Source: Roseovarius sp. (GTDB lineage Bacteria; Pseudomonadota; Alphaproteobacteria; Rhodobacterales; Rhodobacteraceae). From it: a stretch of 64,000 nucleotides of DNA. A program made the translations under genes and the position numbers. The stretch covers positions 62,001 through 126,000 of the forward strand of contig JACIYT010000001.1 of NCBI GenBank assembly GCA_014359765.1, in the 5' to 3' direction. Of the stretch, positions 4,789 through 21,184 are shown one piece after another; within the stretch, counting starts at the first letter, position 1; every line of letters begins with the position of its first letter. A model generated the notes under the pieces. It made no database searches and was not told the origin of the DNA. It saw only the letters and a program-made list of their open reading frames with translations.

Positions 4789-4810
4789 CGGATTGCCGGC
4801 AACATCGTGG

Positions 4811-4844
4811 TCGGGGCTGGCGCAGGGCCGGCCCCGATTCTTTT
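4811..4844 (+). terminator. Rho-independent terminator after mdh
   Basis: TCGGGGC at 4811-4817 pairs with GCCCCGA at 4831-4837 and is followed by TTCTTTT. It lies 23 bases past the mdh stop, so mdh is probably transcribed separately from the sucCDAB operon, or partly attenuated before it. Confidence 0.7.
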
Positions 4845-4873
4845 CAGGGTGCGGGAAACCGCCTGCGCATTGT

Positions 4874-4907
4874 TTGTGATCACACGAATATTTCCCGTGA
4901 TCACAAA
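4874..4907. promoter_or_regulatory. Paired GTGATCAC palindromes in the sucC leader (candidate operator)
   Basis: GTGATCAC occurs at 4876-4883 and again at 4897-4904, 21 bases apart centre to centre, which is two helical turns. The same pair with nearly the same flanks (CACACGA between the copies, CACAAA after them) lies upstream of sdhC at 17645-17672. Conservation of both sites and spacing in front of two functionally linked operons argues for a specific regulator. The two halves are about 110-135 bases upstream of the sucC start. Confidence 0.65.
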
Positions 4908-4980
4908 TCATGGAATTTCGGCGGAAATCCTCCGCTCCGACGAAAAATTCTTTAATTCCGCCGCCATTTCATGCCTATAC

Positions 4981-5008
4981 CTGTCCCGATCGCAGTAAAA
5001 CGGGACAG
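4981..5008 (+). promoter_or_regulatory. Leader hairpin immediately before the sucC start codon
   Basis: CTGTCCCG (4981-4988) and CGGGACAG (5001-5008) form a perfect 8-base-pair stem with a 12-base loop. The 3' arm ends 4 bases before the sucC ATG and contains the only purine-rich stretch (CGGGACAG) that could serve as a weak ribosome-binding site. Folding would hide it. Whether this is a translational switch, a protein site or an accident is not known. Confidence 0.45.
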
Positions 5009-5012
5009 TTTC

Positions 5013-6206
5013 ATGAACATCCACGAGTATCAGGCGAAGGCGCTGCTTCGCTCCTACGGCGCCCCGGTGTCGGATGGCCGCGTGGTCCTGCGCGCCGAAG
5101 AGGCCAAGACCGCCGCGGGCGCGCTCGACGGGCCGCTCTGGGTCGTCAAGGCACAGATCCACGCGGGCGGGCGGGGCAAGGGCCGCTTCAAGGAGGCCGG
5201 CGCCGGCGAGGCCGGTGGCGTGCGGCTTGCGCGTTCGGTCGAGGAGGCCGCCGAAGAGGCGCGCCGGATGCTCGGCCGCACCCTCGTGACCAAGCAGACC
5301 GGGCCCGCGGGCAAGCAGGTCAACCGCGTCTATATCGAGGACGGATCGGGCATCGAGCGCGAGCTTTACCTCGCGCTGCTGGTCGATCGCGGCACCTCGC
5401 GCATCAGCTTCGTCGCCTCCACCGAGGGCGGCATGGATATCGAGGACGTGGCCGAGCGGACGCCCGAGAAGATCCTCAGCTTCTCCGTCGATCCGGCCAC
5501 CGGCTATCAGCCCTTTCATGGCCGCCGCATCGCCTTTGGCCTTGGCCTCACCGGCGCGCAGGTCAAGCAATGCGTGGCGCTGATGGGCACGCTCTACAAG
5601 CTCTTCGTCGAGAAGGACGTGGAGATGCTCGAGATCAACCCGCTGATCGTCACCGACAAGGGCGATCTGAAATGCCTCGACGCGAAGATGGGCTTTGACG
5701 GCAACGCGATCTATCGCCACCCCGACATTGCCGAGCTGCGCGACACCACCGAAGAGGACCCCAAGGAACTCGAAGCGTCGAAATACGACCTGAACTATAT
5801 CGCGCTGGACGGCGAGATCGGCTGCATGGTCAACGGCGCGGGTCTGGCGATGGCGACGATGGACATCATCAAGCTCTACGGCGCCGAACCTGCCAACTTC
5901 CTCGACGTGGGCGGCGGCGCGACCAAGGAAAAGGTCACCGAGGCGTTCAAGATCATCACGTCGGATCCCAACGTGAAGGGCATCCTCGTCAACATCTTCG
6001 GCGGCATCATGCGCTGCGACGTGATCGCCGAGGGCGTGGTGGCGGCGGTCAGGGAGGTGGGCCTCAAGGTGCCGCTCGTGGTGCGGCTCGAAGGCACCAA
6101 TGTGGAGAAGGGCAAGGAGATCATCAACAGCTCCGGCCTCGACGTGATCGCTGCCGACGACCTCAAGGACGGCGCGCAGAAAATTGTCAAAGCGGTGAAA
6201 GGCTGA
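5013..6206 (+). CDS. sucC: Succinate-CoA ligase (ADP-forming), beta subunit
   Basis: A 397-residue protein starting [18 protein letters not shown], the standard SucC N-terminus. The ATP-grasp fold covers about residues 1-240 ([24 protein letters not shown]). The C-terminal ligase domain carries GGGATKEKV and [15 protein letters not shown], which contact CoA and the phosphohistidine loop of the alpha subunit. With SucD it converts succinyl-CoA to succinate with nucleotide triphosphate formation in the TCA cycle. It is the first gene of a sucC-sucD-sucA-sucB run. No strong ribosome-binding site is free; see the leader hairpin. The upstream in-frame Met at 4971 lies within that leader and is unlikely. 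Confidence 0.96.
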
Positions 6207-6210
6207 TCAG

Positions 6211-7092
6211 ATGGCGGTTCTTGTCAACGAAAACACCCGTGTGATCTGTCAGGGCCTCACCGGCTCGCAGGGCACGTTCCATTCCGAGCAGGCCATCGCC
6301 TATGGCACGAAGATGGTCGGCGGCGTGACGCCGGGCAAGGGCGGCACGACGCATCTCGACCTGCCGGTGTTCAACTCGGTGCACGAGGCGAAACATGAGA
6401 CGCAGGCCAATGCCTCCGTCATCTATGTGCCGCCGCCCTTTGCCGCCGACAGTATCCTCGAGGCGATCGACGCGGAAATGGAGCTGATCGTCTGCATCAC
6501 CGAGGGCATTCCCGTGCTCGACATGATGCGCGTCAAGCGCGCGCTCGAAGGCAGCAAAAGCCGGCTCATCGGCCCCAACTGCCCCGGCATCATCACGCCC
6601 GACGCCTGCAAGATCGGCATCATGCCCGGCCATATCCACCGGCGCGGCAGCGTCGGCGTGGTTTCGCGCTCGGGCACGCTCACCTATGAGGCGGTGAAGC
6701 AGACGACGGATGTGGGCCTTGGCCAGTCCACCTGCGTGGGCATCGGCGGCGATCCGATCAAGGGCACCGAGCATATCGACGTGCTCGAATGGTTCCTCGC
6801 CGATGACGAGACCCAGTCGATCATCATGATCGGCGAGATCGGCGGCTCGGCCGAGGAAGAGGCCGCGCAATTCCTGAAAGACGAGGCCAAGCGCGGCCGA
6901 AGCAAGCCCGTCGCAGGCTTCATCGCGGGGCGCACCGCCCCTCCGGGCCGCCGCATGGGCCATGCGGGCGCCATCGTCGCCGGTGGCAAGGGCGATGCCG
7001 AATCGAAGATCGAGGCGATGAAATCCGCCGGGATCACGGTGGCCGAGAGCCCCGCGGGCCTCGGCGAGGCCGTGCTCAAGGCGATCGGCTGA
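6211..7092 (+). CDS. sucD: Succinate-CoA ligase, alpha subunit
   Basis: A 293-residue protein, the usual SucD length. The CoA-binding N-terminal domain contains [12 protein letters not shown], and [11 protein letters not shown] and [10 protein letters not shown] follow. The phosphorylated active-site His is in [10 protein letters not shown] near the C-terminus. It pairs with SucC, whose stop is only 4 bases upstream. A strong GC hairpin follows the stop codon before sucA. Confidence 0.97.
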
Positions 7093-7098
7093 CATGCG

Positions 7099-7123
7099 CG
7101 GGGGCGGGCCGGCCCCGCCCCCG
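7099..7123 (+). terminator. GC-rich hairpin between sucD and sucA (attenuator or processing site)
   Basis: A perfect 10-base-pair stem (7099-7108 with 7114-7123) with a 5-base loop is followed by TTTC. The T run is short, so full termination is doubtful. It may lower sucA expression relative to sucCD or protect the upstream mRNA. The sucA start is 46 bases downstream. Confidence 0.5.
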
Positions 7124-7168
7124 TTTCACAAGGGCGGGGCCGCGCGCCCTCGCGGGAGGACAGCAGAG

Positions 7169-10129
7169 ATGACCGACCAATCCCCCAACGACCTCTTCCA
7201 CGCATCCTCCTTCATGCAGGGGGCCAATGCCGAATATCTCGAACAGCTTCACGCCCGCTACGCCAATGACCCGAACGCGGTCGATGAGGCATGGCGCGCC
7301 TTTTTCGACCAGCTGGGCGACGGGCAGGAGGATGTTCGGCGCGAGGCGCAAGGACCCTCCTGGGCGCGGTCCGACTGGCCGCCGGTTCCCGATGACGACC
7401 TGACCGCCGCGCTCACCGGCGAATGGCCGGTCGAGGTGGAGATGAAGGAGGCGGGCCGCAAGATCGCCGCCAAGGCCGCCGAAAAGGGCATCGAGGTCGC
7501 CGATGAGCAGGTCAAGCGCGCGGTGCTCGATTCGGTGCGCGCGCTGATGCTGATCCGCGCCTATCGTATCCGCGGCCATCTCATCGCCGATCTCGATCCG
7601 CTCGGCCTGCGCGAGCAGACCTACCAGCCCGAGCTCGACCCGAAATCCTACGGCTTCACCGAGGCCGACATGGACCGGCCGATCTTCATCGACAACGTGC
7701 TCGGCCTCCAGGTGGCGAGCCTGCGCGAGATCCTCGCGCTTGTGCGGCGCACCTATTGCGGCACCTTCGCGCTGCAATACATGCATATCTCGGATCCCGA
7801 ACAGGCCGCCTGGCTCAAGGAGCGGATCGAGGGCTACGACAAGGAAATCAGCTTTACCCGGCGGGGCCGCAAGGCGATCCTCAACAAACTGGTGGAGGCC
7901 GAGGGCTTCGAGAAGTTTCTCCATGTCAAATACATGGGCACCAAGCGTTTTGGCCTCGACGGCGGCGAGAGCCTCATTCCGGCGATGGAGCAGATCATCA
8001 AGCGCGGCGGCCAGCTTGGCGTGCAGGAAATCGTCATCGGGATGCCCCACAGGGGCCGCCTCTCGGTGCTGGCCAATGTCATGGGCAAGCCCTATCGCGC
8101 GATTTTCAACGAATTCCAGGGCGGCAGCTTCAAGCCCGACGAGGTCGATGGTTCGGGCGACGTGAAATATCACCTCGGCGCCTCCTCGGACCGCGAATTC
8201 GACGGCAACAAGGTTCACCTGTCGCTCACCGCCAACCCCAGCCATCTCGAGGCGGTGAACCCTGTCGTGCTCGGCAAGGTGCGCGCCAAGCAGGACCAGC
8301 TGAACGACACCGAGCGGACCAAGGTCCTGCCGCTGCTCTTGCATGGCGATGCGGCCTTTGCCGGTCAGGGCGTGGTGGCGGAATGTTTCGGCCTCTCGGG
8401 CCTCAAGGGGCATCGCACCGGCGGCACCGTGCATATCGTGGTGAACAACCAGATCGGCTTTACCACGGCGCCGCATTTCTCGCGCTCCTCGCCCTATCCG
8501 ACCGATATCGCGCTGATGGTCGAGGCGCCGATCTTTCACGTCAACGGCGACGATCCCGAGGCGGTGGTCCATGCCGCGCGCGTGGCGATCGAGTTCCGCC
8601 AGAAATTCCACAAGGACGTGGTCATCGACGTCTTCTGCTACCGCCGCTTCGGCCATAACGAGGGGGATGAGCCGATGTTCACCAACCCCTTGATGTACAA
8701 GCAGATCAAGCAGCACAAGACGACGCTCGCCCTCTATACCGACCGGCTGGTGCAGGACGGCCTCATCCCCGAGGGCGAGGTCGAGGACATGAAGGCCGCG
8801 TTCCAGGCCTTTCTTTCCGAGGAGTTCGAGGCCGGCAAGGAATATCGCCCGAACAAGGCCGACTGGCTCGATGGCAAATGGGCCGATCTCAACCCCCACA
8901 GGGGCAAGTATGAGCGTGGCGAGACCTCGATCGCGCCCGAAACCCTCCGTGAGGTCGGCGCGGCGCTGACCCGCGTGCCCGAGGGGCTGAACATCCACAA
9001 GACCCTCCAGCGCCTGCTCGAGGCCAAGGCCCGGATGTTCGAGACCGGCGAGGGCTTCGACTGGGCGACTGCCGAGGCGCTCGCCTTCGGCTCGTTGCTG
9101 ACCGAGGGCTACCGCGTGCGCCTCTCCGGCCAGGACAGCACCCGCGGCACCTTCAGCCAGCGCCATTCGGCCTTCATCGACCAGGAAACCGAAGAACGCT
9201 ACTACCCGCTCGACAATATCCGCGAGGGGCAGGCGCATTACGAGGTCATCGATTCGATGCTGTCGGAATATGCCGTGCTCGGGTTCGAATATGGCTACAG
9301 CCTCGCCGAGCCCAAGGCGCTGACCCTCTGGGAGGCGCAGTTCGGCGATTTCGCCAACGGTGCGCAGATCATGTTCGATCAGTTCATCTCTTCGGGCGAA
9401 TCGAAATGGCTGCGCATGTCGGGCCTCGTCTGCCTGCTGCCGCATGGCTACGAGGGGCAGGGGCCGGAACATTCCTCGGCGCGGCTGGAACGCTTCCTGA
9501 CGATGTGCGGAGCCGATAACTGGATCGTGGCCAATTGCACCACCCCGGCGAACTATTTCCACATCCTGCGCCGCCAGCTCTATCGCACCTTCCGCAAGCC
9601 GTTGATCCTGATGACGCCGAAATCGCTTCTGCGTCACAAGATGGCAGTGTCGAAGGCCGAGGATTTCACCACCGGTTCGTCCTTTCACCGGCTGCTGCGC
9701 GACGATGCGGAAGGGGGCCAGTCGGGCACGAAGCTCGTGGCCGACAAGAAGATCCGCCGCGTCGTCATGTGCTCGGGCAAGGTCTATTACGACCTGCTGG
9801 AAGAACGCGACAAGCGCGGCATCGACGATGTCTATCTCCTGCGCGTCGAGCAGTTCTATCCCTTCCCGGCCATGTCCATGGTCAAGGAGCTCGAACGCTT
9901 CAAGGGCGCGGAAATGGTCTGGTGCCAGGAAGAGCCCAAGAACCAGGGCGCGTGGTCCTTCATCGAGCCCAATATCGAATGGGTGCTGACCCGCATCGAC
10001 GCCCGGCACAAGCGCCCGGTCTATGCCGGCCGCCCCGCCGCCGCCTCGCCCGCCACGGGTCTCGCGCGGCAGCACAAGGAACAACAAGAGGCGCTGGTCG
10101 ATGCCGCGCTGACCATCGAAGGGAACTGA
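7169..10129 (+). CDS. sucA: 2-oxoglutarate dehydrogenase E1 component
   Basis: A 986-residue thiamine-diphosphate enzyme that decarboxylates 2-oxoglutarate and transfers the succinyl group to the lipoyl arm of E2. The N-terminal E2-contact segment (SFMQGANAEYLEQLHARY) is present. The ThDP/Mg region includes GMPHRGRLSVLANVMGKP, HGDAAFAGQGVVAE and VNNQIGFTT. The C-terminal half holds the transketolase-like pyrimidine domain with RGTFSQRHS and GYEGQGPEHSSARLERFL. The ATG at 7169 follows GGGAGGACAG. The stop is 3 bases before the sucB ATG, so the subunits are translated together. Confidence 0.97.
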   Translation: MTDQSPNDLFHASSFMQGANAEYLEQLHARYANDPNAVDEAWRAFFDQLGDGQEDVRREAQGPSWARSDWPPVPDDDLTAALTGEWPVEVEMKEAGRKIAAKAAEKGIEVADEQVKRAVLDSVRALMLIRAYRIRGHLIADLDPLGLREQTYQPELDPKSYGFTEADMDRPIFIDNVLGLQVASLREILALVRRTYCGTFALQYMHISDPEQAAWLKERIEGYDKEISFTRRGRKAILNKLVEAEGFEKFLHVKYMGTKRFGLDGGESLIPAMEQIIKRGGQLGVQEIVIGMPHRGRLSVLANVMGKPYRAIFNEFQGGSFKPDEVDGSGDVKYHLGASSDREFDGNKVHLSLTANPSHLEAVNPVVLGKVRAKQDQLNDTERTKVLPLLLHGDAAFAGQGVVAECFGLSGLKGHRTGGTVHIVVNNQIGFTTAPHFSRSSPYPTDIALMVEAPIFHVNGDDPEAVVHAARVAIEFRQKFHKDVVIDVFCYRRFGHNEGDEPMFTNPLMYKQIKQHKTTLALYTDRLVQDGLIPEGEVEDMKAAFQAFLSEEFEAGKEYRPNKADWLDGKWADLNPHRGKYERGETSIAPETLREVGAALTRVPEGLNIHKTLQRLLEAKARMFETGEGFDWATAEALAFGSLLTEGYRVRLSGQDSTRGTFSQRHSAFIDQETEERYYPLDNIREGQAHYEVIDSMLSEYAVLGFEYGYSLAEPKALTLWEAQFGDFANGAQIMFDQFISSGESKWLRMSGLVCLLPHGYEGQGPEHSSARLERFLTMCGADNWIVANCTTPANYFHILRRQLYRTFRKPLILMTPKSLLRHKMAVSKAEDFTTGSSFHRLLRDDAEGGQSGTKLVADKKIRRVVMCSGKVYYDLLEERDKRGIDDVYLLRVEQFYPFPAMSMVKELERFKGAEMVWCQEEPKNQGAWSFIEPNIEWVLTRIDARHKRPVYAGRPAAASPATGLARQHKEQQEALVDAALTIEGN

Positions 10130-10132
10130 GTG

Positions 10133-11671
10133 ATGAGCACCGAAGTCCGCGTCCCCGCCCTTGGCGAATCCGTCACCGAGGCCACCGTCGCCACCTGGTT
10201 CAAGAAACCCGGCGATGCGGTGGCCGCCGACGAGATGCTGTGCGAACTGGAAACCGACAAGGTGACGGTCGAGGTCCCCTCGCCCGCCGCCGGCACCCTT
10301 GGCGAGATCGTGGCCCAGGAGGGCGAGACCGTCGGCGTCGATGCGCTGCTGGCCACCATCACCGAGGCCGACGCCGACGGCGAAGACAAACCCGCCCCCG
10401 CCCCGCAGGAAGAAAGACCCGAGGCCAGCGCCGCCGCCACCGACGGCGATGACGGCGATGACGCGGTCGAGACGATCGACGTCATGGTGCCCGCCCTCGG
10501 CGAGAGCGTGACCGAGGCCACCGTCGCCACCTGGTTCAGGAAGGTGGGCGATACCGTCGCCGCCGACGAGATGCTCTGCGAGCTTGAGACCGACAAGGTC
10601 TCGGTCGAGGTGCCCGCGCCCGCCTCGGGCACGCTGGTCGAGATCCTCGCAGGCGAGGGTGAGACGGTGCAGGCTGGCGGCAGGCTCGCGCGCCTCGCCT
10701 CGGGCGAGGGGGCCGCCGCCGCCGCCGCCAGCTCCACCGACGCCCCGGCAGCGAAGGCCGCGCCCGGATCCGGCAAGGATGTCGAGGACGCGCCCTCGGC
10801 GAAAAAGGCCATGGCCGAGGCGGGCATTTCCCGCGATCAGGTCACCGGCTCGGGCCGCGATGGCCGGGTGATGAAGGACGACGTGGCCCGCGCCGCCGCC
10901 GCTGCCGCGCACGCCTCCGCCCCCGCCGCCCCCGCACAGGCCCCCCGCGCGCCCTCCCCGGCCGAGGATGCCGCCCGCGAAGAGCGCGTCAGGATGACCC
11001 GCCTGCGCCAGACCATCGCCCGCCGCCTCAAGGACGCGCAGAACACCGCCGCCATGCTCACCACCTATAACGAGGTGGACATGACCGAGGTCATGGCGCT
11101 GCGCAACGAATACAAGGACGCGTTCTTCAAGAAACACGGCGTGCGCCTCGGCTTCATGTCCTTCTTCACCAAGGCGTGCTGCCACGCCCTCAAGGAAGTG
11201 CCCGAGGTCAATGCCGAGATCGACGGCACCGACATCGTTTACAAGAACTACGTCCACATGGGCATCGCGACGGGCACGCCCACGGGCCTTGTCGTGCCGG
11301 TGATCCGCGACGCCGACGCGCTCAGCTTTGCCGAGATCGAAAAGGCCATCGCCGAAAAAGGCGCCCGCGCCCGCGACGGCAAGCTCTCGATGGCCGAGAT
11401 GCAGGGCGGCACCTTCACCATCTCCAATGGCGGCGTCTATGGCTCGCTCATGTCCTCGCCGATCCTCAACCCCCCGCAATCGGGCATTCTGGGCATGCAC
11501 AAGATCCAGGATCGCCCGATGGCGATCAACGGTCAGGTGGTGATCCGCCCGATGATGTATCTGGCATTGAGCTACGATCACCGCATCGTGGACGGCAAGG
11601 GCGCGGTCACCTTCCTCGTGCGGGTCAAGGAGGCGCTCGAGGATCCCCGGCGGTTGCTGATGGATCTGTGA
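10133..11671 (+). CDS. sucB: Dihydrolipoyl succinyltransferase (E2) with two lipoyl domains
   Basis: A 512-residue E2. Two near-identical lipoyl domains occupy about residues 2-78 and 115-192; each has the lipoylated Lys in CELETDKV. A third domain, the E1/E3-binding domain ([14 protein letters not shown], about 217-253), follows an Ala/Pro-rich linker, and then the catalytic core with [16 protein letters not shown] carrying the His and Asp of the active site. Many SucB proteins (for example in E. coli) have a single lipoyl domain, so the duplication is worth noting. A GTG 3 bases upstream is an alternative start. The last codons overlap the brnT start. Confidence 0.96.
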
Positions 11672-11928
11672 GCGACCCGGATTACGAGTGGGACGCCGAC
11701 AAGGCCGCACAGAACATGGCCAAACACGGCGTCCCGTTCGAGGCTGTCACCGGGTTCGATTGGCGCACGGCAATCGAGGCGGAGGATACGCGCTATGACT
11801 ATGGCGAGACACGAATGCAGGCCCTTGGCAAGATCGACGGCAGGTACCACGTTCTTGTCTACGCCTGGCGTGGCACCCGCATCCGCGTAATCTCGCTGCG
11901 CAAGGCCAACCGGAGGGAAGTCCCATGA
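11668..11928 (+). CDS. brnT: BrnT family ribonuclease toxin
   Basis: An 86-residue protein with the BrnT pattern: [20 protein letters not shown] at the N-terminus, [13 protein letters not shown] in the middle and [22 protein letters not shown] at the C-terminus. BrnT toxins are RelE-like ribonucleases neutralised by BrnA. The GTG start overlaps the sucB stop as GTGA, so translation would be coupled to the E2 gene, which is unusual for a toxin. Its own stop overlaps the next start as ATGA. No toxin activity can be judged from sequence, but the basic and aromatic positions of the family are present. Confidence 0.8.
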
Positions 11929-12175: not shown

Positions 12176-12559
12176 ATGACCTCTAAAGATTCTGAAGTGT
12201 CGAGGTTGGGGAGAGCCGATGCACTTGGCTTGGCTTTTGTGCGCACGACGATAATACTTAACTCGGGGGCCATTCTCGCCATTCTGACTTTTGCAGGGAA
12301 CGCTGATGCATCGCGCATGATCTGGTTTGAGTTTGAAAGCATCAAATGCGCGATGTGGTCGTTCTTGGTTGGCATTGCTTCTATTCTTTTGGCGCTGATC
12401 ATCTCTTACTCATACATGGCAACAGCGCCTCAGTATTGTTGGCATAGCTTTTGGGACAATTGGATTATCCCATTTAATGTCGTTCTAGGAATCTTGTCTG
12501 TCGGAGCCTTCCTTTTCGGTGTCGGCGTTCTCATTTCAGGAAGTGTGTCCACGCAATGA
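12176..12559 (+). CDS. Small membrane protein of unknown function, low GC
   Basis: A 127-residue protein with three clear hydrophobic helices (about residues 27-41, 59-80 and 96-120) and a charged N-terminus. The family is not recognised. The DNA from about 12138 to 12560 is markedly AT-richer than the flanking genes and uses A/T-ending codons, which suggests recent acquisition together with the brnTA pair. GAGGG lies 10 bases before the ATG. The stop overlaps the start of the MAPEG gene. Confidence 0.6.
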   Translation: MTSKDSEVSRLGRADALGLAFVRTTIILNSGAILAILTFAGNADASRMIWFEFESIKCAMWSFLVGIASILLALIISYSYMATAPQYCWHSFWDNWIIPFNVVLGILSVGAFLFGVGVLISGSVSTQ

Positions 12560-12951
12560 CCCCCGAACTCACCGCCCTCACCCTCGCCGCGCTCCTGCAA
12601 GCCGTGCAATTCATCCTCTACGCGGTCCCGGCCAATCGCGAGCTTGGCCCCGGCTACACCATGTCCGCCCGCGACCGCGAGCCGTCCCGCCAGCTCTCGC
12701 CCGGAACCGCCCGCCTGGGCCGCGCGCTCACCAACCATTTCGAGGGGCTGATCCTCTTCACCATCGCCTGCGTCACCATCACGCTCAGCGATCAATCCAC
12801 CCAATTCACCGCCGCCTGCGCCTTCACCTATCTCGGCGCGCGCGTGCTCTACATCCCGGCCTATGCCTTCGGGCTCTGCCCCTGGCGCTCGCTGATCTGG
12901 GCCGTGGGCTTCGCGGCCACGCTCCTCATGCTGCTGGCGGCGCTCTTGTGA
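12556..12951 (+). CDS. MAPEG family membrane protein
   Basis: A 131-residue inner-membrane protein with four hydrophobic segments and the pattern of bacterial MAPEG proteins: ANRELGPGYTMSARD near the start, then GRALTNHFEGLILFTIAC and YLGARVLYIPAYAFG. The family contains glutathione-dependent transferases and peroxidases and homologs of unknown role. Composition is back to the GC-rich style of the host. Start and upstream stop overlap as ATGA, so it is translated with the low-GC membrane gene. Confidence 0.8.
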   Translation: MTPELTALTLAALLQAVQFILYAVPANRELGPGYTMSARDREPSRQLSPGTARLGRALTNHFEGLILFTIACVTITLSDQSTQFTAACAFTYLGARVLYIPAYAFGLCPWRSLIWAVGFAATLLMLLAALL

Positions 12952-13041: not shown

Positions 13042-14430
13042 ATGGCCTCCTATGACGTGATCATCATCGGCGCCGGCCCCGGCGGCTATGTCTGTGCCAT
13101 CCGCTGCGCGCAGCTTGGCCTGAAAACCGCCGTGGTCGAGGGGCGCGAGACGCTTGGCGGCACCTGCCTCAACGTGGGCTGCATCCCGTCGAAGGCGCTC
13201 CTGCACGCCTCGCACCAGCTCCACGAGGCGGAACACAATTTCGAAAAGATGGGCCTCAAGGGCAAGGCGCCTTCGGTGGACTGGAAACAGATGCTCGCCT
13301 ACAAGGACGAGGTGATCGGCCAGAACACCAAGGGTATCGAATTCCTCTTCAAGAAGAACAAGGTGGACTGGATCAAGGGCTGGGGTTCCATCCCCGAGGC
13401 GGGCCGCGTCAAGGTCGGCGACGAGATCCACGAGGCGAAGAATATCGTCATTGCCACTGGCTCCGAGCCCTCCTCCCTGCCCGGTGTCGAGGTCGATGAA
13501 AAGGTGGTGGTCACCTCCACCGGCGCGCTCGATCTGCCGAAGATCCCGAAAACCATGGCCGTCATCGGCGGCGGCGTCATCGGGCTGGAGCTGGGCTCGG
13601 TCTATGCCCGGCTCGGGGCGCAGGTGACGGTGATCGAATATCTCGACGCGATCACGCCCGGCATGGATGGCGAGGTGCAGAAGACCTTTCAGCGCATCCT
13701 CAAGAAACAGGGGCTTGATTTCATCATGGGCGCCGCCGTCCAGTCGGTCGAGGCGCTCAAGACCAAGGCCAGGGTTGATTACAAGCTGCGCAAGGATGAC
13801 AGCGAACACCAGATCGAGGCCGATGTGGTCCTCGTCGCCACGGGCCGCAAGCCCTTTACCGACGGGCTCGGCCTCGACGGGCTCGGCGTCGAGCTGACAA
13901 AGCGCGGCCAGATCAGGACCGACGATCACTGGCAGACCTCGGTCAAGGGCATCTACGCCATCGGCGACGCCATCGAGGGCCCCATGCTCGCCCACAAGGC
14001 CGAGGATGAGGGCATGGCCGTGGCCGAGGTGCTCGCGGGCAAGCATGGCCATGTGAATTACGGCGTCATCCCCGGCGTGATCTACACCCATCCTGAGGTC
14101 GCCAATGTGGGCGAAACCGAGGAGAGCCTGAAGGAACAGGGCCGCGCCTACAAGGTCGGCAAGTTCTCCTTCATGGGCAATGGCCGCGCCAAGGCGGTGT
14201 TCGCGGGGGAGGGCTTTGTCAAGATCCTCGCCGACAAGGAGACCGATCGCATCCTCGGCGCCCATGTCATCGGGCCGGCGGCCGGCGAGCTCATCCACGA
14301 GGTCTGCGTGGCGATGGAATTCGGCGCCGCGGCCGAGGATCTCGCGCTCACCTGCCATGCGCACCCGACCTTTTCCGAGGCGGTGCGCGAGGCCGCGCTC
14401 GCCTGCGGCGACGGGGCGATTCACGCCTGA
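13042..14430 (+). CDS. lpd: Dihydrolipoyl dehydrogenase (E3)
   Basis: A 462-residue flavoprotein disulfide reductase that reoxidises the lipoyl groups of the 2-oxoglutarate dehydrogenase complex. The FAD-binding [17 protein letters not shown] lies at the N-terminus. The redox-active pair is in [16 protein letters not shown]. The NAD site is [19 protein letters not shown], and the C-terminal catalytic His-Glu pair is in [16 protein letters not shown]. The start follows GAAAGGAAATTCC. It is separated from sucB by the toxin/membrane-gene insert but keeps the same direction. Confidence 0.97.
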
Positions 14431-17536: not shown

Positions 17537-17545
17537 GCGCATTCC

Positions 17546-17672
17546 GTGATCACATTCCCGGGGCCAGCTCCATATGCGGGAATCCCTGGTCCGGTGCCCC
17601 TGATTCCGCGCTGTGGCGTGGGGGTGGGAGATTTTCGCGTGGGTGTGATCACACGATTATTTTCGTGATCAC
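17546..17672. promoter_or_regulatory. Three GTGATCAC palindromes upstream of sdhC
   Basis: GTGATCAC occurs at 17546-17553, 17645-17652 and 17665-17672. The last two are 20 bases apart and copy the sucC-leader pair including the intervening CACACGA and trailing CACAAA. They lie 140-170 bases before the sdhC start. The single upstream copy about 95 bases further might allow looping. No other feature was seen in the 276-base gap between ubiK and sdhC. Confidence 0.65.
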
Positions 17673-17812
17673 AAAGCCTGGCCTTTTGCGGCGAATTGTC
17701 CGGTTGGACGGCATTTTTTCACTCTTGGACGTGACAGGAGCGGCAAAAGGCGCCAGAACATACGCAGCCCGCGCGGCACATGCCGCCGCCGACCACCCCA
17801 AGGAGGTTCCCC

Positions 17813-18196
17813 ATGGCACGGACCAAGGAGGTTGAGCGCCCGCTCTCCCCGCATCTGCAGATCTACCGCCCGCAACTCACGTCGATCACCTCGATTCTCA
17901 CGCGCATCACCGGCAACGCGCTCATCGTTGCGGCGCTGCTGATCGTGTGGTGGCTGCTCGCGGCCTCGACATCGGATGCGTATTTCGCGGTGGCCAATGC
18001 CGTGCTCACCTCGTGGTTCGGCGATCTGGTGCTGACGCTCTCGCTCTGGGCGCTGTGGTATCATTACCTCGCGGGGCTGCGGCATTTCTATTTCGACGCC
18101 GGCAAGGGCCTCGATATCCCCACCGCCGAGAAGCTCGGCTGGGGCTGCATCATCGGCTCGGTCGTGCTGACCGTTCTGACCCTGCTTCTGGTCTGA
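17813..18196 (+). CDS. sdhC: Succinate dehydrogenase cytochrome b556 subunit
   Basis: A 127-residue membrane anchor with three hydrophobic helices. The family signature RPLSPHLQIYRPQLTSITSILTRITG is at the N-terminus, and the heme-ligand region HYLAGLRHFYFDAG sits between helices two and three. With SdhD it anchors SdhAB and binds heme b and ubiquinone. A strong AAGGAGG is 6 bases before the ATG at 17813; an earlier Met at 17780 has none. Confidence 0.95.
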   Translation: MARTKEVERPLSPHLQIYRPQLTSITSILTRITGNALIVAALLIVWWLLAASTSDAYFAVANAVLTSWFGDLVLTLSLWALWYHYLAGLRHFYFDAGKGLDIPTAEKLGWGCIIGSVVLTVLTLLLV

Positions 18197-18206
18197 GGAG
18201 GCTGAC

Positions 18207-18578
18207 ATGCGTTATCTGACCGCACGCAAGCGCGCCGAAGGGATGGGCGCCTCGGGCACGGGCACCGAGCATTTCTGGTACATGAAGCTCTCGGGCGTCG
18301 GCCTTGCGCTCATCGTGCCGGCATTCCTCGTGGCCTTCGGGCGTATTCTGGGGGGCGACCGGGCCGAGGTTCTCGACGGCCTCTCCCATCCCGCGATGGC
18401 GATCCTCACGGGGCTGGTGCTGTTCTTCGGGCTGCGCCATTTCGCCGCCGGGGCGCAAACCATGATCGAGGATTACAGCCAGGGCGTGACGCGCCGGGTG
18501 CTGATCATCTTCGTCACCATCCTGAGCTACGGGACGATCGCCACCGGGCTGTTCGCCCTTGCCAAGATCGCGCTGTGA
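18207..18578 (+). CDS. sdhD: Succinate dehydrogenase hydrophobic membrane anchor
   Basis: A 123-residue protein with three hydrophobic segments and the SdhD pattern of alphaproteobacteria: RAEGMGASGTGTEHFWYMKLSG at the N-terminus and FFGLRHFAAGAQTMIEDY in the middle. It lies 10 bases after sdhC with GAGGAGG before the ATG. Confidence 0.92.
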   Translation: MRYLTARKRAEGMGASGTGTEHFWYMKLSGVGLALIVPAFLVAFGRILGGDRAEVLDGLSHPAMAILTGLVLFFGLRHFAAGAQTMIEDYSQGVTRRVLIIFVTILSYGTIATGLFALAKIAL

Positions 18579-18590
18579 GGACCTGAAGAC

Positions 18591-20393
18591 ATGGCTGCAT
18601 ACGAATACGAGACGCATGATTACGATGTCGTGGTCGTGGGGGCGGGCGGTGCGGGGCTTCGCGCCACGCTCGGCATGGCCGAACAGGGGCTGCGCACGGC
18701 CTGCGTGACCAAGGTGTTCCCGACGCGGAGCCACACCGTGGCCGCACAGGGCGGCATCGCGGCATCCCTTGGCAACATGGGCCCCGACAGCTGGCAGTGG
18801 CACATGTATGACACGGTCAAGGGCAGCGACTGGCTCGGCGATACCGACGCGATGGAATATCTCGCGCGCGAGGCGCCCAAGGCGGTCTATGAGCTGGAAC
18901 ATTACGGCGTGCCGTTCTCGCGCACCGAAGAGGGCAAGATCTACCAGCGTCCCTTTGGCGGCCACACCACCGAGTTCGGCGAAGGCCCCCCGGTGCAGCG
19001 CACCTGCGCCGCCGCCGACCGCACCGGCCACGCGATCCTGCACACGCTCTATGGTCAGAGCCTCAAGCAGAAGGCCGAGTTCTACATCGAGTATTTCGCC
19101 ATTGATCTGGTGATGACCGACGGCGCCTGCACCGGCGTCGTCTGCTGGAAGCTCGACGATGGCACGATCCATGTCTTCAACGCCAAGATGGTGGTTCTGG
19201 CCACCGGCGGCTATGGCCGCGCCTATTTCAGCGCGACCTCGGCCCATACCTGCACCGGCGACGGCAATGGCATGGTGGCGCGCGCGGGGCTGCCGCTTCA
19301 GGATATGGAATTCGTGCAGTTCCATCCCACCGGCATCTATGGCGCGGGCTGTCTCATCACCGAGGGCGCGCGCGGCGAGGGCGGCTATCTCACCAATTCC
19401 GAGGGCGAGCGGTTCATGGAACGCTATGCGCCCAACTACAAGGACCTCGCGCCGCGCGACTATGTCAGCCGCTGCATGACCATGGAAATCCGCGAGGGGC
19501 GCGGCGTGGGTCCGAACAAGGACCATATCCACCTCAACCTCAGCCACCTGCCGCCCGAGGCGCTCAAGCTGCGCCTGCCGGGGATCTCGGAGAGCGCGCG
19601 CATCTTCGCCGGCGTCGATGTGACCAAGGAGCCGATCCCGGTGCTGCCCACGGTGCATTACAACATGGGCGGGATCCCCACGAATTACTGGGGCGAGGTT
19701 CTCAACCCGACCGAGGAGGATCCCAATGCCGTCGTGCCCGGCCTGATGGCCGTGGGCGAGGCGGCCTGTGCGAGCGTGCATGGCGCGAACCGGCTCGGTT
19801 CCAACTCGCTCATCGACCTGGTGGTGTTCGGCCGCGCGGCGGCGATTCGCGCGGGCAAGGTGGTCGATCCCGAAAGCGCGGTGCCCGCCACGAACAAGGC
19901 CGGGGTCGAGAAGGCGCTCGATCGTTTCGACGGGCTGCGCCATGCTGACGGCGCGGTGCCGACCGCCGATCTGCGCCTCGAGATGCAGCGCACGATGCAG
20001 GCCGATGCCGCGGTGTTCCGCACCGACAAGACCCTCGCCGAAGGGGTCGAGAAGATGGATGCGGTTGCCAGCAGAATGGATGATCTGCGCGTCACCGACC
20101 GCTCGCTGATCTGGAACAGCGACCTGATGGAGACGCTGGAGCTGACCAATCTCATGCCCTGCGCGCTCACCACCATCAACGGCGCCGAGGCCCGCAAGGA
20201 GAGCCGGGGCGCCCATGCCTCGGAGGACCATCCCGAGCGCGACGATGCGAACTGGCGCGTGCACACCATCGCGCGGGTCGCGGGGCGCAAGGTCACGCTC
20301 AGCTATCGCCCGGTGATCGAGACGCCGCTGACCCCCGAGGATCAGGGCGGCATCAGCCTCGCGAAGATCGCGCCCCGCAAGCGCACGTTCTAA
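18591..20393 (+). CDS. sdhA: Succinate dehydrogenase flavoprotein subunit
   Basis: A 600-residue flavoprotein oxidising succinate to fumarate. The FAD-binding [19 protein letters not shown] is at the N-terminus. The His in [11 protein letters not shown] carries the covalent [24 protein letters not shown] and [18 protein letters not shown] hold substrate and flavin contacts. Length and motif order are normal. It is third in sdhCDAB. Confidence 0.97.
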
Positions 20394-20404
20394 GGAGACC
20401 GATC

Positions 20405-21184
20405 ATGGTTCAACTGACACTCCCCAGGAATTCGCGCCTCGTCACCGGCAAGACATGGCCCCGCCCCGAGACCGGCGGCACGCTGCGCAAGTTCCAGATC
20501 TATCGCTGGAACCCCGATGACGGGAAAAACCCGCGCGTGGATACCTATTTCGTCGATCTCGACGATTGCGGGCCGATGGTTCTCGATGCGCTCATCTATA
20601 TCAAGAACAAGATCGACCCGACGCTGACCTTCCGCCGGTCCTGCCGCGAGGGAATCTGCGGATCCTGCGCGATGAATATCGACGGGATCAACACGCTGGC
20701 CTGCATCTACGGCATGGACGAGATCAAGGGCGACGTGAAGATCTACCCGCTGCCGCATATGCCCGTGGTCAAGGACCTGATCCCCGACCTCACGCATTTC
20801 TACGCGCAGCACGCCAGCATCATGCCCTGGCTCGAGACCAGGACCAACGCCCCGGCGAAGGAATGGCGGCAGAGCATCGAGGACCGCGAAAAGCTCGACG
20901 GTCTCTACGAATGCGTGATGTGCGCATCCTGTTCGACCGCCTGCCCGTCCTACTGGTGGAATGGCGACAAGTATCTCGGCCCCGCCGCGCTGCTCCACGC
21001 CTATCGCTGGATCATCGACTCGCGCGACGAGGCCACCGGCGAGCGGCTCGACGATCTGGAAGATCCGTTCAAGCTCTATCGCTGCCACACGATCATGAAC
21101 TGCACCAAGACCTGCCCCAAGGGCCTCAACCCCGCCAAGGCGATCGCGGAAATCAAGAAGATGATGGTGGAACGGCGCGTTTGA
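20405..21184 (+). CDS. sdhB: Succinate dehydrogenase iron-sulfur subunit
   Basis: A 259-residue protein with all three cluster motifs: [13 protein letters not shown] for the [2Fe-2S] centre, [16 protein letters not shown] for the [4Fe-4S] centre, and [20 protein letters not shown] for the [3Fe-4S] centre. It passes electrons from SdhA to quinone. It is last in the operon; a short hairpin follows at 21358. Confidence 0.97.

Follow-up and report, generated by a model that had tools for sequence, protein, structure and literature searches.

Two TCA-cycle operons, each preceded by a closely spaced pair of the palindromic octamer GTGATCAC, lie in the 64,000-nucleotide stretch of Roseovarius sp. 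DNA that was analyzed here (hereafter, the window), raising the question of which regulator reads these pairs and to what effect. The first operon, sucC, sucD, sucA and sucB (5013..11671, plus strand), and the second, sdhC, sdhD, sdhA and sdhB (17813..21184, plus strand), were delineated from open reading frames (ORFs) and their translations; sucC, sdhC and sdhD were recognized by Pfam matches, sdhA and sdhB were named by eye, and so were sucD, sucA and sucB, which were also matched in relatives. The start codon of sucC is the ATG at 5013, and that of sdhC is most likely the ATG at 17813. Downstream of suc lies lpd, encoding dihydrolipoamide dehydrogenase (13042..14430, plus strand; named by eye), which adjoins suc in relatives. 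In the window, the interval between sucB and lpd contains genes for a BrnT-type toxin (Pfam BrnT_toxin; 11659-11928, plus strand) and a MAPEG-family membrane protein (12556-12951, plus strand), the latter preceded by a 127-aa ORF (12176-12559) with no Pfam match.

The octamer occurs six times in the window (at 4876, 4897, 17546, 17645, 17665 and 59502), compared with 1.02 copies expected, and none of 100 shuffled sequences reached six; the first five positions are those listed in the initial annotation, to which we add the sixth. The whole genome (2,646,184 bases in 41 contigs) contains 126 copies, the window's included, and because the octamer is thus not rare, lone copies carry little meaning. 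Genome-wide, no pairs with gaps of 2-30 bases are present other than the two that the initial annotation had placed before sucC and sdhC, so the pair is not scattered across the genome; about 0.012 pairs with gaps of 12-13 would be expected by chance. The sucC pair consists of a distal box, an exact palindrome at 4876..4883, and a proximal box at 4897..4904, separated by 13 bases and ending 108 bases before the sucC ATG. In the sdhC pair, the distal box, likewise an exact palindrome (17645..17652), and the proximal box (17665..17672) are 12 bases apart, and 140 bases separate the latter from the ATG at 17813. The decamer TGTGATCACA is found only twice in the genome, each time as the left box of a pair. 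The flanks, previously described as the same for both pairs, are so only in part: the right outer flank (AAA) is common, but the left outer flank differs (TTT vs GGT), and the inner flanks, similar in the window (ACGAATATTTCCC and ACGATTATTTTC), are kept in relatives only as an A beside box 1 and an A/T-rich middle.

The lone copy at 17546..17553, which precedes the sdhC pair by 99 bases, is not generally conserved. Only 2 of 36 sdhC leaders have an additional exact box in the 200 bases before the pair, so this copy is no more than a possible member of the sdhC operator. One of the relatives (locus L309) has an exact lone box 106 bases upstream of its pair, comparable to that in the window. 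When up to one mismatch is allowed over the same 200 bases, 10 boxes are found in 36 sdhC leaders vs 2 in 40 sucC leaders. Two sdhC leaders (L110 and L105) and one sucC leader (L100) carry a third box, with one mismatch, that prolongs the array in register at a distance of 21-22 bases upstream.

At least one exact pair (gaps 2-30) was detected in 175 of the 198 genomes of our family sample; by hand count, 120 genomes carry exactly two pairs, 33 carry one, and 22 carry three or more, with the maximum of six in G135. Among the 75 pairs listed, which come from 36 genomes, the gap is 13 in 62 and 12 in 6, and all these 68 pairs precede TCA genes: 35 are located before sucC, 31 before sdhC, and one each before sucA (G177) and fumC (G042). 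In the latter genome, the pair is the third one (L311 1994-2022, gap 13) and is located behind sspB, so that fumarase is also preceded by the pair. The 7 listed pairs with other gaps include one (gap 5) in the promoter of the candidate regulator gene of G187 (akgR, see below) and 6 within ORFs of 150 aa or more, although one of these, the gap-23 pair of G042 (L312), may be intergenic, its enclosing ORF having only 151 aa. In a class-level sample of 385 genomes, all 5 members of the same family have two gap 12-13 pairs, vs 2 of the 380 genomes outside the family, with one pair each: in G344, the pair lies directly before a GntR/FCD gene, and in G399 (L221), it is located within ORFs of 266 and 185 aa. 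The possibility that the similarity of the two pairs reflects chance or an unselected repeat, for which the frequency of the octamer (126 copies) could be invoked, is refuted by this family-wide conservation, with two gap 12-13 pairs found vs 0.012 expected, both before TCA operons.

A candidate reader of these pairs is AkgR of Rhodobacter sphaeroides, which the initial annotation offered as a guess. AkgR reportedly corresponds to RSP_0981 (Imam 2015). In the available passages of PMC6365646, AkgR is termed a transcriptional activator, and GTGATCAC is identified among its binding sites; in those of PMC4344238, RSP_0981, a GntR family protein, is predicted to control succinyl-CoA synthetase, succinate dehydrogenase and 2-oxoglutarate dehydrogenase. 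The passages available from PMC11323563 and PMC4419725 only cite the Imam 2015 work. Within these excerpts, the AkgR regulon shares with the system described here the GTGATCAC sites, the predicted suc, sdh and 2-oxoglutarate dehydrogenase targets, and the GntR family; thus, the boxes before the suc/2-oxoglutarate dehydrogenase and sdh genes match this regulon in both motif and location, which supports the earlier guess. The layout with a 12-13-base gap, the single akgR box and the helical phasing described below do not appear in the excerpted AkgR literature; the primary AkgR paper may contain them. A more distant comparison is offered by PS417_07240, the GntR protein of the Pseudomonas simiae deoxyribonate cluster, which is 32% identical to AkgR: as here, GTGATCAC lies close to the start of the regulator gene itself (-47 to -40), but, unlike here, a single palindrome is named and the pathway is different (PMC6365646, available passages).

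The window's genome itself encodes a cognate GntR family regulator that co-occurs with the motif. There are eight GntR matches in this genome; six of the proteins were scanned, and four contain the FCD domain (L019, L020, L021 and L023). L021 (GntR plus FCD, 215 aa; G000:C16:24852-25496, minus strand) has its nearest named records, among the best 80 relatives, mostly in Roseovarius, at no more than 93% protein identity, and it was detected at E <= 1e-52 in 177 of the 198 family genomes; 20 of the 21 negative genomes were named individually, and G195 was counted among them by elimination. The gene and the exact pair occur together in 172 genomes, and 18 genomes have neither, with 5 containing the gene only and 3 the pair only (Fisher p 2.7e-18). 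Some of the genomes with neither had unreadable leaders: those of G172 and, in G021, the main ones of sucC and sdhC. Among the gene-only genomes, both leaders of G040 contain pairs with one mismatch where the pair normally stands; G122, G147 and G166 yielded no sdhA and either no sucC or only a paralog of about 53% identity; and G155 yielded neither sucC nor a readable sdhC leader. No L021 match at E <= 1e-52 was found in the pair-bearing genomes G019, G096 and G114; the last of these, rated 100% complete, has pairs in both leaders and no detected L021 orthologue.

The genomes being related, we also mapped both characters onto a tree of SucC and SdhA from 60 genomes, with G040 scored as pair-bearing and G155 left unscored. 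The tree requires akgR to change 9 times and the pair 8 times. All branches together give 9 contrasts; the well-supported branches, given the relatedness of the genomes, give only 5 independent ones, of which a mean of 4.7 are concordant and 0.3 show no difference, with 0 discordant (p 0.0625 by a sign test). Among the near neighbors of the window's genome in this tree, G047 and G151 have the pair, and G109 and G195 do not. Most relatives in the family keep the pair before suc and sdh, contrary to the refuting outcome named in the initial annotation, and G109 and G195, which lack it, also lack an intact L021. In G109, the L021 gene is interrupted by a stop, a one-mismatch right box persists 107 bases before sucC, and there is no sdhC pair; in G157, L021 contains several stops, and a four-mismatch relic pair with a gap of 13 is located 109 bases before sucC; in both genomes, the relic boxes occupy the conserved position. 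In the other L021-less genomes with readable leaders, no pair stood clearly above shuffled sequences, except for three-mismatch matches in G017 (sucC) and G101 (sdhC).

Two other GntR proteins of this genome, L019 and L023, were profiled against the pair as controls. L019, the best GntR match at first (contig C3), was rejected as AkgR, being present in only 82 of the 198 genomes; it occurs in 77 of the 175 pair-positive and 5 of the 23 pair-negative genomes, a weak association (p 0.045). Orthologues of L023 (at least 45% identity) were found in only 10 of the 29 pair-positive and 3 of the 23 pair-negative genomes surveyed and, accordingly, L023 was rejected as well; these 52 genomes, also surveyed for broken L021 genes, were hand-picked and comprise all 23 pair-less and 29 of the 175 pair-bearing genomes.

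Collectively, the co-occurrence of L021 with the pair and the available passages of PMC6365646 and PMC4344238 support the initial suggestion of one dedicated regulator, which is likely to be AkgR, represented here by L021. The orthology of L021 with the R. sphaeroides protein is suggested by family, motif, targets and gene neighborhood. In G051, the L021 orthologue is located about 750 bases beyond sdhB, an arrangement at which the RSP numbering also hints.

The upstream region of akgR itself contains a single box. We collected 133 loci of L021 relatives, 80 of them the closest relatives from the best-80 set, with 124 distinct upstream sequences; an exact GTGATCAC is present in 113 of the 124, in most cases 8-10 bases ahead of the probable start codon, and 103 of these 113 share the fixed frame TTGACN-N12-box. 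The akgR of the window's genome matches this frame with one mismatch (GCGATCAC). The 11 upstream sequences without an exact box include that of the broken G109 gene, and in several of them (G051, G010, G063 and G001), akgR lies beside suc or sdh. The usual spacer between -35 and -10 is 17-18 bases; therefore, the -10 would overlap the akgR box, and transcription would start near the ATG, so that the akgR mRNA probably lacks a leader and repression is the probable effect of the box. Placed between the predicted -35 and -10, this single box probably makes akgR a self-repressor.

It is very improbable that another regulator, such as CceR, a CRP/FNR relative or another GntR protein, owns the pair while L021 merely co-occurs with it. 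The CRP/FNR operator is TGTGA-N6-TCACA, with a six-base center. No match to it was found on the plus strand of either whole leader (4789-5012 and 17537-17812), and TGTGA and TCACA abut there without a spacer. CceR (RSP_1663), a LacI family protein, is also predicted to act on mdh and sdh in the available passages of PMC4344238, but its consensus given there, [AGT]GTT-N6-8-AAC[ACT], likewise has no match on the plus strand of 4789-5012 or 17537-17812. The weak association of L019 with the pair could be taken to favor another GntR protein; however, L019 is missing from most of the 175 pair-positive genomes and L023 from most of the 29 surveyed for it, the box is present in L021's own promoter, and one of the two pairs outside the family, that of G344, is located just before a GntR/FCD gene whose product is 31% identical to L021.

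The effect of binding on suc and sdh is best judged from the position of the pair relative to the promoters, which we surveyed in 78 leaders (41 of sucC and 37 of sdhC, the window's own included), with distances counted from box 2. In the window, a matrix scan predicts a sucC promoter at 4952..4981 (plus strand) that consists of TTAATT (4952-4957), an 18-base spacer and TATACC (4976-4981); its offsets of 46-48 and 71-72 recur in relatives, with TT[GTA]A at 46-48 in 23 of the 27 matches within 40-56 and TATA at 71-72 in 10 of the 41 leaders. The blind matrix scan agrees only weakly for sucC, its top-ranked position falling at 46-48 in 10 of the 41 leaders. The putative sdhC -35 in the window is GTGACA (17731..17736, plus strand), 58 bases after box 2; the blind scan ranked another site of this leader higher, and no clear -10 was found behind the element. 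Among the 37 sdhC leaders, [GT]TGAC is located 57-60 bases after box 2 in 27 and at 48, 48, 69, 78 and 80 in five, with none within 40-100 in another five; the blind scan placed the best site at 57-60 in 24 leaders, the window's own not among these. Relative to the common distance, the five exceptions are shifted by nearly whole helical turns (10.5 bases each; mean cosine 0.906 and, vs uniform offsets of 40-100, p 0.0002), in a phase test that involves only these five and is not blind because the sdhC -35 element was first noticed by eye. In sucC leaders, the predicted promoter elements are about one turn closer to the pair than in sdhC leaders. Overall, the predicted -35 mostly follows the pair at a distance of 46-60 bases, a geometry that favors activation from a fixed DNA face over occlusion; the shifts of predicted promoter distance by about whole helical turns also point to activation from one face.

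Repression of suc and sdh by pair-bound AkgR, for example, via a roadblock or a loop, with relief by a metabolite, is the strongest alternative, albeit an unlikely one. Regulators of the GntR/FCD family are mostly repressors, the akgR box falls inside its predicted core promoter, and some sdhC pairs have extra boxes upstream. However, the suc and sdh pairs mostly lie 46-60 bases upstream of the predicted -35 rather than over the promoter, the sdhC distance varies by about whole turns, and AkgR is termed an activator in the available part of PMC6365646.

We therefore favor, with a probability of roughly 0.85, the reading that the paired GTGATCAC boxes are AkgR operators, bound as two neighboring dimers and activating sucCDAB and sdhCDAB from upstream. 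This reading builds on what is directly visible in the sequences, namely the geometry, place and conservation of the pair, its co-occurrence and co-decay with L021, and the single box upstream of the L021 start. Each pair would bind two adjacent AkgR dimers two helical turns apart, and the dimers may cooperate; a dimer-of-dimers assembly is consistent with the 20-21-base distance between box centers. From there, AkgR would activate suc and sdh, the pair lying upstream of the promoters and, for sdhC, at a distance in helical register, and the same protein at the single akgR box would repress its own gene. In the class I activation by Escherichia coli CRP, the activator binds an upstream site whose distance from the promoter changes in whole helical turns. 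The system described here resembles it in the upstream site and the whole-turn shifts but differs in protein family, in having two boxes, and in their position further upstream. A broader, family-wide code, to which we would give an even chance, could be envisaged: a single GntR regulator would repress itself through one box lodged between the -35 and -10 elements of its gene, whose transcript is probably leaderless, and would activate three consecutive TCA steps via a dimer of dimers at two boxes, two turns apart and whole turns from the promoter.

The pair is genuine and strongly conserved, and it is very probably the operator of a known regulator, whose identity and targets were already known or predicted; what is added here, the strict pair geometry, the single- vs double-box layout and the whole-turn promoter distances, may already be in print. 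In this family, the central part of the TCA cycle would be tied to one regulator with a compact operator design, the two operons covering three consecutive steps of the Krebs cycle, and a member of a mostly repressor-type protein family apparently serves as an activator. In several lineages, the joint absence and joint decay of the regulator and its operator capture a regulon in the process of being dismantled.
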